DNA from: a virus
Length of the DNA: 27,420 nt
Reading direction: 5' to 3' (one strand)
IMG/VR virus record: IMGVR_UViG_3300017755_000074
Span: 1 to 27,420 of that record
Shown: positions 23,641 through 26,605 of the stretch, piece after piece
How positions within the stretch are numbered: the first letter of the stretch is position 1
Layout: the number at the start of each line of letters is the position of its first letter
The notes under the pieces: generated by a model
Database searches by the model: none
What the model was told of the DNA's origin: nothing
The model's input: the letters and a program-made list of their open reading frames with translations, nothing else
Translations under genes and position numbers: made by a program

Positions 23641-23931
23641 TTACCATTTGACTTTATCAGCCCAATATGCAGCACTCATTTTGCCTTTGGCAATATTCTT
23701 TCCGTGCCTAGCTTTAAAACTCTTACGTCTTGCCTTTTGTTTTGCAGATTCTCCTGCTTTAGGTTTACCTGCAGTTTTTACGCCTTGTTGACCAAAACGT
23801 ATAGTTTTTACTTTATCTCCTACCTTAGCTACAACTACATGTGATTTTTTTGGATGAGAAGGAGTTCTTTTAGGTTTATTATAACCAGACACTCCTGCTT
23901 TTGCTAATCTACTATCTTTTTTTGCAGCCAT
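23641..23931 (-). CDS. Basic small protein of a marine-phage family
   Basis: 96 residues, Lys/Arg-rich. It begins MAAKKDSRLAKAGVSGYNKP, continues with TPSHPKKSHVVVAKVGDKVK and IRFGQQGV, and ends SFKARHGKNIAKGKMSAAYW before ADKVKW. I recognise this chain as a widespread small family in marine phages, with no established function as far as I know. The SHVVVAKVGDKVKTIRFGQQG section looks like a small beta unit between basic arms, so binding of nucleic acid is possible. It lies 2 nt after the 80-residue basic gene. The 70-nt gap behind it separates this cassette from the amidase operon. Confidence 0.7.
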   Translation of the reverse strand: MAAKKDSRLAKAGVSGYNKPKRTPSHPKKSHVVVAKVGDKVKTIRFGQQGVKTAGKPKAGESAKQKARRKSFKARHGKNIAKGKMSAAYWADKVKW

Positions 23932-23933
23932 AA

Positions 23934-24176
23934 TTATCTATTTTTACCTTTATGTAAACCATGACTAGCATGTTGTTTACCTTTTCTTGTAGCAGCTCTT
24001 TTCTTTGCGTTTGCTGCAGCTAATTTCTTTTTACCTTTCTTAGTACTCTTCAGCTTAGAAATAGTCTTAGACGGAGCATATACTTCACCAGTCTCAGAAG
24101 ATTTCTTTCCGCTTGCCGTTCTCCACTTCTGTTTAGTCCATCTAGTAAGACTTTTCTGCTGTTTAGTCTTTGCCAT
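23934..24176 (-). CDS. Basic small protein (SLTRWTKQKWRTASGK type)
   Basis: 80 residues, extremely Lys-rich. The N-terminus has SLTRWTKQKWRTASGKKSSE and GEVYAPSKTISKLKS; the C-terminus holds AAANAKKRAATRKGKQHASH. I recall this type from marine phages and also from some giant viruses of protists; I cannot check that here. No catalytic residues stand out, and the charge suggests binding to DNA, RNA or polyanions. Its ATG overlaps the stop of the 39-residue gene (TAATG), so translation is coupled. A histone-like or virion-packaged protein are both possible. Confidence 0.65.
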   Translation of the reverse strand: MAKTKQQKSLTRWTKQKWRTASGKKSSETGEVYAPSKTISKLKSTKKGKKKLAAANAKKRAATRKGKQHASHGLHKGKNR

Positions 24177-24295
24177 TACTTTTTCTTTTTAGGCATAGCC
24201 TTAAGAAGCTTTTCTATTTTAAGTGCCTGTGCTTTGTGCATAGCTGAAGCTTTTTTTAATTCTTTAGCTATTTGCTTTAATTGTTTTGATTGCAT
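24176..24295 (-). CDS. 39-residue Lys/Ala-rich helical protein
   Basis: Starts MQSKQLKQIAKELKKASAMH and ends EKLLKAMPKKKK. A single amphipathic helix with a basic tail is likely. Its stop overlaps the start of the 80-residue basic gene (TAATG), and its start lies 19 nt inside the lipoprotein-like ORF, so the packing supports a true gene. The LKKASxMHxxQAxxxEKL pattern recalls small proteins seen beside the other basic genes in marine phages. Function is unknown. Confidence 0.55.
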   Translation of the reverse strand: MQSKQLKQIAKELKKASAMHKAQALKIEKLLKAMPKKKK

Positions 24296-24381
24296 ACTAT
24301 ATCTTTATTTTGTGAGCAACACTCTTTTGGTGCTGCACATGCTGCTAATGTAAACAGCACGAATATTATTATTTTTTTCAT
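24277..24381 (-). CDS. 34-residue lipoprotein candidate, possible lysis (o-spanin-like) protein
   Basis: Starts MKKIIIFVLFTLAACAAPKE and ends VCNQNN. Two lysines, a hydrophobic core (IIIFVLFTLAA) and LAAC at 12-15 give a complete signal peptide with lipobox; Cys15 would be lipidated, leaving a 20-residue mature chain with three more cysteines. Such tiny lipoproteins are typical of outer-membrane spanins (Rz1-like), and an amidase lies about 1 kb further in the block. No partner inner-membrane spanin was found. It overlaps the 39-residue gene by 19 nt. The signal is clear; the lysis role is inference, and a surface-exclusion lipoprotein is an alternative. Confidence 0.55.
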   Translation of the reverse strand: MKKIIIFVLFTLAACAAPKECCSQNKDIVCNQNN

Positions 24382-24404
24382 GAAGGCCAAATTATTATCA
24401 TTAG

Positions 24405-24614
24405 TTATTTCTTTTTTCCTCTATATCCGCCTCCGTTTGCTTTATACCTTTTTGCTAGCATTTGAGCTTTACGAGCAGACCACTGACCAGGAGCCCCACC
24501 TTTACTCCCAGCTTTGATAGAATTAAACAATCTTTTACGCATAGTAGGTTTAGTATAGTTTCCTGAACTATTTACGGTGCTTTTTTTCTTAGTTGCTTTT
24601 TTCTTTAACGCCAT
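24405..24614 (-). CDS. Basic small protein (PGQWSARKAQ type)
   Basis: 69 residues. A Lys/Thr/Ser-rich N-terminus (MALKKKATKKKSTVNSSGNY) is followed by RKRLFNSIKAGSKGGAPGQW, SARKAQMLAKRYKANGGGYR and a KKK end. The GGxPGQWSARKAQxLAKxYKxxGGGY block is one I recall from marine phages and from large eukaryotic DNA viruses, without known function. Charge and size suggest nucleic-acid binding. It lies 23 nt before the lipoprotein candidate, in a cassette of similar basic genes. Confidence 0.65.
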   Translation of the reverse strand: MALKKKATKKKSTVNSSGNYTKPTMRKRLFNSIKAGSKGGAPGQWSARKAQMLAKRYKANGGGYRGKKK

Positions 24615-24648: not shown

Positions 24649-24969
24649 TTATGCTTTAGAAGTTTGAGGATACGCTTCATCCATTATCTTTTGCAGTTTA
24701 GCACATCTTTCATATTGTTCAAAACCTATGTAGTGATGGATCATATTCTCAAGTTGTTCTTGCGTAGGTCCAGTTATTGGGTCGTAAGCCATTACTGCCT
24801 CATGACCTTTATCAAATTTCTTTTCTAACAAGTCATCAAAACTAATTTGATTAGTTAAAACAAAATAAGAATTATTATAAGCTGTCTCTAGAAGTACTTG
24901 CTCCAATTGCATTTGTTCAATTTCCGTTAAACCGTTTTCATGCTCAGGTTCATTTTCCCATTGTGACAT
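24649..24969 (-). CDS. Acidic small protein with UvrB/UvrC-like C-terminal motif
   Basis: 106 residues, and the first gene of the leftward block. The N-terminus is acidic (ENEPEHENGLTEIEQMQLEQ); the middle has AYDPITGPTQEQLENMIHHY. The last 35 residues (YIGFEQYERCAKLQKIMDEA) resemble the UVR motif of UvrB/UvrC, a helical hairpin for protein contact; small phage proteins of this kind are common and not proof of repair function. Its leader (AACTAAAAACAAAACTT before ATG) is A-rich without Shine-Dalgarno. It lies beside the divergent control region, so it may be among the first leftward genes expressed. Confidence 0.6.
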   Translation of the reverse strand: MSQWENEPEHENGLTEIEQMQLEQVLLETAYNNSYFVLTNQISFDDLLEKKFDKGHEAVMAYDPITGPTQEQLENMIHHYIGFEQYERCAKLQKIMDEAYPQTSKA

Positions 24970-25203
24970 AAGTTTTGTTTTTAGTTATACTACATCTATA
25001 AGAATAATATACTAAAATTTCTAGTCCCATAAAAATTATTTAGCACTAACATTACCCCCACACCCTTCAAAAACATACTCCCCCCCCCCACCAAAGTTGT
25101 GTATTTTGCGTGCTATGTACCTCCTCCCCTTTTGCTCCCCACCTTATAATTGTGGTTGGGTTACCCCCCGTAATATTTCCACAACAATTAAAATTTATTA
25201 ATT
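24970..25203. promoter_or_regulatory. Divergent control region with C/G-run tracts
   Basis: This 234-bp gap separates the leftward and rightward blocks and should hold promoters for both. The plus strand has C5 (25055-25059), C10 (25080-25089), CCTCCTCCCC (25120-25129), C4 (25137-25140) and C6 (25164-25169) in an otherwise AT-rich genome. Several G-runs on the minus strand could form a G-quadruplex. TATAAT (25145-25150) lies before the rightward gene, and TAGTATATT-type sequence lies before the leftward gene. It could also be a replication origin. No gene is seen in it. Confidence 0.55.
25130..25154 (+). repeat. 25-nt element, copy 1, upstream of the first rightward gene
   Basis: TTTTGCTCCC followed by 15 nt that include TTATAAT and TGTG. 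It matches 25733-25757 at 20 of 25 positions by hand count without gaps, and ends 49 nt before the ATG at 25204. It may be a promoter or regulator site. Confidence 0.45.
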
Positions 25204-25614
25204 ATGTTATATTTTTATTCCTTAAATCAAGGACAACGTTCAGACGGATCACAGTTCCGTTCTATTATCACAACTGATACACCAATAGAAAAAACTAGAT
25301 CAGTATCAATTGGTTCACAATCTGCAAGTGCAAGTACAGACAGAAGATCTGTAAAATATGGTGTATTCAATCCAAAAGATGAAAACAATAATGCTTATTC
25401 ATTTGATAATCCATGGTGGGATACTTTCATTCAGGACTTTGAGATTGATATGGATAACCCTATCAAGACAGGTGATAAGAGTAAAGACAGTTGGTTTAAT
25501 ACTTACCAAGGTAACTTTGCTTTATTATCAGAAGACTTAGAGTTAAGTAAAGAAAATCTTGTTAATTCTAATGGTGAAACAGTAAATAATGTATACTATG
25601 TAAAAACTATGTAG
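25204..25614 (+). CDS. First rightward (probable early) protein, unknown function
   Basis: 136 residues, not recognised. It has no signal peptide or membrane span. The N-terminal 50 residues are polar and Ser/Thr/Arg-rich (SIGSQSASASTDRRSVKYG); the middle carries NPWWDTFIQDFEIDMDNPI, acidic and aromatic; the C-terminus (LSEDLELSKENLVNSNGETV) looks helical then beta. The leader AACAATTAAAATTTATTAATT before ATG is A/T-rich, as for other genes here. It is alone between the divergent control region and a terminator, so it is a single-gene unit, often the pattern of strongly expressed early phage proteins. Host takeover, inhibitor and DNA-binding roles are all open. Confidence 0.6.
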   Translation: MLYFYSLNQGQRSDGSQFRSIITTDTPIEKTRSVSIGSQSASASTDRRSVKYGVFNPKDENNNAYSFDNPWWDTFIQDFEIDMDNPIKTGDKSKDSWFNTYQGNFALLSEDLELSKENLVNSNGETVNNVYYVKTM

Positions 25615-25619
25615 ACTGT

Positions 25620-25655
25620 AAGAGAGAGTGTAATAGCTCTCTCTTTGTTTATTTC
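25620..25655 (+). terminator. Terminator after the first rightward gene
   Basis: AAGAGAGAG pairs with CTCTCTCTT (9 bp, 8-nt loop) 5 nt past the stop codon, followed by TGTTTATTT. The U-run is interrupted, so strength is moderate. Confidence 0.65.
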
Positions 25656-25978
25656 CATACAATCTAACACATGTTTCTGGTTTTATACTACATACTACAA
25701 CATGTTTCCCGTTTCTCTCTCTCTTTCCTCTTTTTTGCTCCCTTTCTTTTAAATGTGTGCATAACATGTACATTAAAGTGTGTTAAACTGTATGTACCTG
25801 GTCTCATATCCACATATTACCACTATTTACCACATCAAAATAATTATTACAACCTAAAGTATATATATAGCTAACAACAATACAACAAGGGTAGTCTTTG
25901 TCTCTCTCTCTATAGGATAAGAGGCATAGTACCCGGAATCTTAATCAAATAATCTCTAACAAATAAACAATAACAATT
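25656..25978 (+). promoter_or_regulatory. Long non-coding gap with pyrimidine tracts before the LRR gene
   Basis: No gene is supported here. A tract at 25705-25750 has no A and only two G's on the plus strand, with (CT)n runs; a second (TC)5 run lies at 25901-25910. ACATGTTTC occurs twice (about 25669-25678 and 25700-25708). AT-rich TATATATATA (25858-25869) and TATAGGAT (25911-25918) are possible -10 elements. The gap probably controls the LRR gene and its neighbour. A small hydrophobic reading frame across the tract is explained by its base composition. Confidence 0.4.
25733..25757 (+). repeat. 25-nt element, copy 2, in the gap before the LRR gene
   Basis: TTTTGCTCCC followed by TTTCTTTTAAATGTG, partner of the element at 25130-25154 (20 of 25 matches). 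It lies 221 nt before the LRR start codon, further than copy 1 from its gene. Confidence 0.45.
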
Positions 25979-26605
25979 ATGAAAAAACTATTAATAATCT
26001 TATTCATGCCATTAATATCTATGGCTCAACAACAAACCTATGTACCAGATGATAACTTTGAGGCTGCCTTAGAGTATATGGGTATAGGTAACGGAATACC
26101 AAATGATAACTATGTCACTACATCTAACATAAGTGATATAACAAATCTTAATATATATGGCCAAGGTATATCTGACCTAACAGGTATAGAAGACTTCCTT
26201 AGCTTAATAAACCTTGAAGCTCAATATAACCAATTGACAAGTATAGATCTAAGTAATAATATTGCTCTAAAGATTTTGTTTATTAGTGACAATCAGCTTA
26301 CACAACTTGATATAAGCAATAACCCTTTGATAAATATACTTCATACATTTAACAATCCAGGCTTAGAATGTATAAATGTATATGATATAACTCAAGCAAA
26401 TAATTTTCCTGCTGGTCATGCTCAGCTTGATAATAACCAATACTTCAGTGAATCGTGCATGTTAACAGACGTAGCTGAAACATATCAGTATAGAAAAGTC
26501 GTAAAGATAATAGATCTATGGGGTAAAGATGTAATCATGTACAATCAACCTGTGTTCTTTATCTATGATGATGGAAGCGTAGAAAGAAAAGTAATAATCC
26601 AATAA
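25979..26605 (+). CDS. Secreted leucine-rich-repeat protein of flavobacterial type
   Basis: 208 residues. MKKLLIILFMPLISMAQQQT is a Sec signal peptide with cleavage near SMA-QQ. TYVPDDNFEAALEYMGIGNG then begins a chain typical of flavobacterial secreted LRR proteins. About three LRR units follow (around 60-125): LINLEAQYNQLTSIDLS, LKILFISDNQLTQLDIS and LINILHTFNNPGLECINV. The C-terminal part (KVVKIIDLWGKDVIMYNQPV, then IYDDGSVERKVIIQ) matches the end of many marine flavobacterial exported proteins; whether it acts as a type IX sorting domain is unsure. With few repeats it may be a trimmed copy. Most likely host-derived cargo acting at or beyond the envelope, perhaps surface modification or exclusion. 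It is 10 nt before the next gene. Confidence 0.8.
   Translation: MKKLLIILFMPLISMAQQQTYVPDDNFEAALEYMGIGNGIPNDNYVTTSNISDITNLNIYGQGISDLTGIEDFLSLINLEAQYNQLTSIDLSNNIALKILFISDNQLTQLDISNNPLINILHTFNNPGLECINVYDITQANNFPAGHAQLDNNQYFSESCMLTDVAETYQYRKVVKIIDLWGKDVIMYNQPVFFIYDDGSVERKVIIQ

Follow-up and report, generated by a model that had tools for sequence, protein, structure and literature searches.

The window analysed here, i.e. the whole 27,420-nt stretch of IMG/VR record IMGVR_UViG_3300017755_000074, covers part of the genome of a marine crAss-related phage. Its terminase, portal and head protein match PHROG families 6681 (6e-64), 6547 (4e-92) and 11589, respectively, and among annotated phages the nearest are crAss-like and Flavobacterium psychrophilum phages, with terminase identities of 26–28 %. 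Judged by the similarity of these three proteins, the window is crAss-like (Crassvirales-related). Among the closest cultured relatives found is FPSV-S29 (Fipvunavirus), which is listed outside the order.

Two gene blocks diverge in the window. The leftward (late) block carries the lysis, terminase, portal and head genes, while the rightward (early) block opens with small genes to which no function was assigned, the first of them having homologues in the same place in the relatives. The gap between the blocks is, as the first-pass annotation had stated, the only divergent switch of the window, and the homologous gap of the 108-kb relative G014 (98 % terminase identity) is the point at which the two main blocks of that genome, a long late and an early one, diverge. 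A terminator-like hairpin, read from the sequence with no program score, lies 3′ of the first early gene and has equivalents in the relatives; such a structure is expected if the early genes form separate units. On the late side of the gap, the box GTATATTATTCTTATAGA is nearly invariant 5′ of the late block and FPSV-S29 has a similar TTTGTATAATA, making it a putative late promoter; scanning with the late-promoter pattern gave chance matches within genes too, and nothing was gained from it. Two further features of the surroundings were noted, i.e. a second early gene (25979–26605, + strand) encoding a secreted-looking, leucine-rich-repeat-like protein (PHROG 7816), and a series of three small proteins rich in Lys/Arg, encoded close to where the late block begins (23641–24614, − strand). 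The features of the locus are listed in Table 1.

Table 1. Genes and sequence features at the divergent gap of the window
Feature	Position	Strand	Remarks
First gene of the leftward (late) block	24649–24969	−	106 aa, no assigned function; from the ORF list
GTATATTATTCTTATAGA	24995–25012	−	Putative promoter of the leftward (late) block; kept in nearly all relatives
C5 tract (CCCCCACACC)	25055–25064 (C5 itself 25055–25059)	+	Second upstream degenerate C-box (putative); CCCCCCACC in relatives
C10 tract (CCCCCCCCCCACC)	25080–25092 (C10 itself 25080–25089)	+	Upstream degenerate C-box (putative)
AAAGTTGTGTATTTTGCGTGCTAT block	25093–25116	+	Conserved spacer from C10 to the core, from alignments
CCTCCTCCCC tract	25120–25129	+	Immediately 5′ of the C-box; close relatives only
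Core element	25133–25169	+	TGCTCCCCA-N-CTA...TTG...GGGTTACCCCCC; 34 nt from its end to the first early gene
C-box TGCTCCCCA	25133–25141	+	First of the two core C-tracts; all 54 aligned relatives share TCCCCA
C4 run	25137–25140	+	Within the C-box region
A/T box CTTATAATTG	25143–25152	+	At a constant distance from the C-box; CTA-N5/6-TTG in the family; might be a −7-like box
Lineage-specific hairpin TTGTGG...CCACAA	25150–25184	+	Surrounds the second C-tract
Second C-tract GGGTTACCCCCC	25158–25169	+	Short G/C inverted repeat; its C-run begins 27 nt from the first C of the C-box
C6 run	25164–25169	+	Second C-tract of the core
First early gene	25204–25614	+	136 aa, no assigned function; ATG 34 nt past the element
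Terminator-like hairpin and T-rich tail (AGAGAGAG..CTCTCTCTTTG)	25621–25650	+	3′ of the first early gene
Secondary C-box TTGCTCCCTTTCTTTTA	25735–25751	+	Next early gap; second-best matrix score in the window

On re-examination of the window sequence, the C-runs that had drawn attention to the gap were all present where the annotation had placed them, and its description of the genome as very AT-rich is fair (the window has ~33 % GC). Apart from the C10 tract, no C-run in the window exceeds 6, and the runner-up, C6, is located in this gap as well. With 47 C, the 119-nt stretch containing the runs is the C-richest of that length in the window; the longest G-run of the window measures at most 5. 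Where the window has C10, its nearest relatives have C5, C6 or C7, while distant relatives have a short tract or none. The suspected variability in length was thus borne out (C5 to C10 among close relatives), and since C5–C7 stand at the same tract in the nearest relatives, C10 is, by comparison with them, a lengthened variant of a conserved tract. The exact length might also be a sequencing or assembly artefact in an otherwise real tract, as C10 occurs in a single contig only; we regard this as unlikely, given that the window also deviates from its relatives in the bases flanking C10 and that the tract as such is conserved, so that any doubt is confined to the length of C10 at most. Both upstream tracts, C10 and C5, resemble the C-box of the core element (TGCCCCCCACC vs TGCTCCCCACC) and may, on this resemblance, represent extra weak, degenerate copies of it.

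The strictest conservation is found not at C10 but in the core next to the early gene, i.e. TGCTCCCCA-N-CTA-N5/6-TTG...GGNTACCCCC. In this arrangement the C-box is followed by ~20 nt containing the A/T box, by (GGG)NTACCCCC and, after another 34 nt, by the first early start codon. A pattern scan of IMG/VR returned more than 100 stretches, nearly always with one copy per contig, of which ~70 distinct elements could be aligned, the matches in L121, L135, L181 and L199 having been dropped as chance matches. These ~70 relatives share the divergent gap and its C-tracts, and the same tract array lies on the leader strand 5′ of the first late-block gene. Absence of the tract from near relatives was looked for and the relatives have it, which upholds the tract as a conserved feature of the switch. 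The family form of the A/T box was derived from the alignment of 54 relatives, and this box also recurs behind the C-boxes found deeper in the early block. An Rfam search with the element returned nothing above chance.

These further C-boxes were collected with a matrix built from the core C-box, which was scanned over both flanks of 73 loci at a threshold of 15 bits. The early strand of the early block gave 62 secondary sites within 4 kb (148 kb scanned), while the controls gave two matches in all, one on the opposite strand of the early block and one on the early strand of the late side, whose late strand gave none (252 kb per strand); as related sequences are counted, the 62 sites do not represent 62 independent events, and what matters is how they compare with the controls. 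Of the 60 secondary sites listed, 56 lay outside ORFs of at least 50 aa, many of them 44–120 nt before an early ORF. The secondary site of the window, with a matrix score of 9.6 vs 24.2 for the main site and 7.2 for the next best, is weak if taken alone. FPSV-S29 has an analogous motif, CAAAACCC(C/T)CACT(T/C)ATT, also written CAAAACCCTCACTTATT, five times in its early gaps and only on the early strand, one of the five copies being CCCCCACTCATT. The matrix scan also bears on the strand that matters: it points to the C-rich strand, reading towards the early genes, and not to the G-rich leader of the leftward block that the first-pass annotation had emphasized. In L039/G002, we additionally observed that a gene paralogous to the first early gene, located ~800 nt inside the early block, has its own C-box directly upstream.

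Outside the marine group, genomes with an identifiable strand switch were examined for two tracts of at least C4 spaced 26–30 nt apart, a test that is partly post hoc as the cross-family spacing had been spotted by eye beforehand. Such a pair was found on the early strand, at most 1 kb from the switch, in 11 of the 13 non-marine genomes (crAss001, cr85_1, cr128_1, cr108_1, DAC15, cr126_1, cr6_1, cr50_1, crAss002, phi14:2 and FPSV-S29), and on the late strand near the switch in none of the 13. A further genome, cr116_1, has the pair as well, its switch being one that could not be placed. Elsewhere, six such pairs occurred in ~1.3 Mb, one of which is the copy within the DAC15 terminal repeat; the second DAC15 copy was considered as a duplicated promoter and rejected, and it is not counted as independent, since it belongs to that repeat. 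The spacing histogram shows a sharp peak at 25–29 nt near the switches and is flat elsewhere; the window pair has a spacing of 27 nt, with 34 nt between the end of C6 and the ATG. Around the switches (within 500 nt), G-run content was 160, vs 63 ± 16 at random places. The looser pattern CCCCAN{17,24}TAN{0,1}CCCC stayed at control level (six control matches) and was discarded, only position giving it meaning. In most genomes the element ends 34–67 nt before the early start codon, e.g. 45 nt before gp1 in crAss001, where one reverse-strand gene, gp2, is found on the upstream side of the element, and 67 nt before the first early gene in phi14:2; an A/T tract is found 30–70 nt upstream of it in most families. 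In p-crAssphage only the second tract was found (TACCCCCGTCAAG), and in Dulem virus 41 no element. Taken as a pattern in sequence, the element is a recurrent, fixed-spacing signal before the first early genes of most of the crAss-like phages that were examined, marine and human-gut ones included. As a separate observation, (A/T)CCCC(CC)GT(A/G)GAGGAT(G) occurs ~18 times genome-wide on one strand of p-crAssphage (BK010471.1, L285–L289), possibly as a repeated regulatory hairpin.

A strand-specific signal that precedes the early block and is repeated at further early genes is what would be expected of a promoter, and of the roles proposed at the outset, transcription control fits the strand- and position-specific tracts best. 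We therefore consider it probable, though far from certain, that the C-tracts constitute a conserved early promoter/leader element of crAss-like phages. Against this speak the reduced element of p-crAssphage, the lack of one in Dulem virus 41, the loss of the G-run/hairpin part in three genomes and the position of gp2 in crAss001. Placed ahead of the early gene block, the element would act as an early promoter with its leader, similar C-boxes deeper in the block would mark the starts of other early units, and the giant, injected virion RNA polymerase would be the most probable reader. That last assignment is the more speculative one, and we would put it at somewhat below an even chance. The early genes of crAss001 are on from 0–10 min, and a similarly placed early operon of phi14:2 has been reported as transcribed by the virion polymerase (PMC8375218); the early regions of both phages carry the same element in the same place before the early genes. 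The window itself has no polymerase gene, the region in question lying outside it, and the polymerase was identified in the close relative G014 as a late protein of 4387 aa that contains DFDIDQ (DxDxD motif) and aligns with phi14:2 gp66 over 360 aa (E 7e-8, two-sequence BLAST). A search of solved structures with the polymerase region gave no match.

Two known types of promoter invite comparison. N4-type promoters are early-gene signals with a hairpin, used by a phage-injected RNA polymerase, and the element resembles them in preceding early genes, in marking several early units and in often containing a short G/C hairpin. It differs in that another polymerase family would be involved and that the invariant part is here the pair of C-tracts at 26–30 nt; an obligate hairpin of the N4 type was not found, as the G-run/hairpin part is absent from FPSV-S29, crAss002 and cr6_1 and the folding signal is weak. 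Host promoters in Bacteroidota have the form −33 TTG/−7 TAnnTTTG, and in many marine members the CTA-N5/6-TTG A/T box is similar to this −7 box, whereas 13 of 16 genomes lack an exact TAnnTTTG close to the element. We know of no Bacteroidota host element where the C-box lies.

Instead of being the promoter itself, the element could also form part of the 5′ leader. In one such scenario, the C-tracts form a leader hairpin of the early mRNA that serves in message protection or translation control, with the promoter further upstream. The position of the element in most genomes, 34–67 nt from the start codon, would suit this, as would the G/C hairpin on the early strand, whose arms are TTGTGG/CCACAA in the window, TTGAGG/CCTCAA in L021 and a G-U form in L011. 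The hairpin is thus present in several lineages with one compensatory change, although it is statistically weak: mean folding z was −1.04 at the main site, −0.43 at the secondary sites and −0.28 in the control, i.e. a mild excess at the former and none at the secondary sites, for which reason it was rejected as the main feature. Moreover, what is strictly conserved is the sequence and not the pairing, and no Rfam family matches the element, so that a leader hairpin appears improbable as the primary function.

The first-pass annotation had also proposed that the G-runs opposite the C-tracts are able to form a G-quadruplex. A conserved G-quadruplex or i-motif on the leader strand of the leftward block would agree with the G4Hunter peak of 1.88 at C10 in the window, yet the median maximum across 68 elements was 1.04, none of the 68 had four tracts of at least G3 with loops of at most 12 (8 of 68 with loops of at most 30), and distant members have only a short C-run in place of the long one, or none. 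A conserved quadruplex is consequently not supported, and we give this reading hardly any weight. Length-variable C-tracts in a strand-asymmetric control region are also known from the mitochondrial conserved sequence block II; the phage element shares both properties with it but differs in having neither a conserved quadruplex nor a sign of primer formation.

The gap had further been put forward as a replication origin, and a divergent gap with T-tracts and C-tracts could indeed be a site of replication start, perhaps primed by an R-loop. In four long relatives, the minimum of the cumulative GC skew lies 0.3–3.5 kb from the element, and G014 has a local minimum ~1.2 kb from the gap and a maximum near the convergence of the blocks; A/T tracts, as noted above, lie upstream of the element in most families. 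An inversion of GC skew is thought to split crAss-like genomes into two replichores (PMC10136315). The predicted turn in the skew was found near the gap, but ~1.2 kb to the right of the tracts and not at them. Over the late arm, moreover, the + genes have a third-position skew of 0.248, which drops to −0.015 in the two reversed genes if the strand is kept the same. Since skew thus partly follows gene strand, its turn does not constitute independent evidence for an origin, and GC skew was rejected as proof of one. The secondary copies at other early genes likewise fit promoters better, and we consider an origin quite improbable.

In the literature that we searched, no published promoter for the virion polymerase of crAss-like phages was found. 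The open literature searched contains no description of the element either, but the primary phi14:2 polymerase paper was outside the search and priority is therefore uncertain. In kind, the element belongs with the early control elements of phages; the specimen itself appears to be new and order-wide. In the human gut, crAss-like phages rank with the most abundant viruses; a virion RNA polymerase is among their proteins, and the element provides a concrete candidate for the DNA read by this enzyme. As the candidate is short enough to be cloned and is common to cultured phages (crAss001, crAss002, DAC15, phi14:2 and the Fpv phages), the start of early transcription in the order becomes directly testable. 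The element would, in addition, serve as a landmark for orienting crAss-like genomes.

Finally, the element might mark a terminase cut site or the end of a terminal repeat, the early block then reading inwards from the genome end. The linear record of DAC15 (MT074136.1) has a direct terminal repeat of 1,842 bp (1–1842 and 97653–99494), the right boundary of which lies 9 nt upstream of the element (copies at 1796 and 99448), and crAss001, which has been reported with short direct terminal repeats (PMC8042965), has a record that begins inside gp1, ~130 nt from the element. It is owing to these two phages that a role at the terminus is kept in play. A few marine contigs (L083, L086 and L173) end within the gap, but the upstream ends of 58 terminase-bearing contigs are broadly spread with no sharp pile-up there, and many contigs, some longer than 100 kb, run through it; a physical genome end at the gap is accordingly not supported for the marine group. 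In addition, crAss002 carries the element and yet is predicted to package by a pac-type headful mechanism, and secondary C-boxes before other early genes are unexpected for a terminus, so that this explanation seems unlikely overall. It could nevertheless be compatible with the promoter reading. It is tempting to speculate, even if we think it rather unlikely, that across crAss-like phages a single ancestral signal, i.e. two C-tracts 26–30 nt apart, marks the early start, is the virion-polymerase promoter and also lies at the genome end that enters the cell together with this polymerase; if true, entry, early transcription and packaging would be coupled at one site. With regard to record ends more generally, positions 1–49 of FPSV-S29 (MK764449.1) are identical to 91660–91708, beside the putative late promoter, reflecting either an assembly overlap or a short terminal repeat, and several gut crAss-like records share 55-bp ends.
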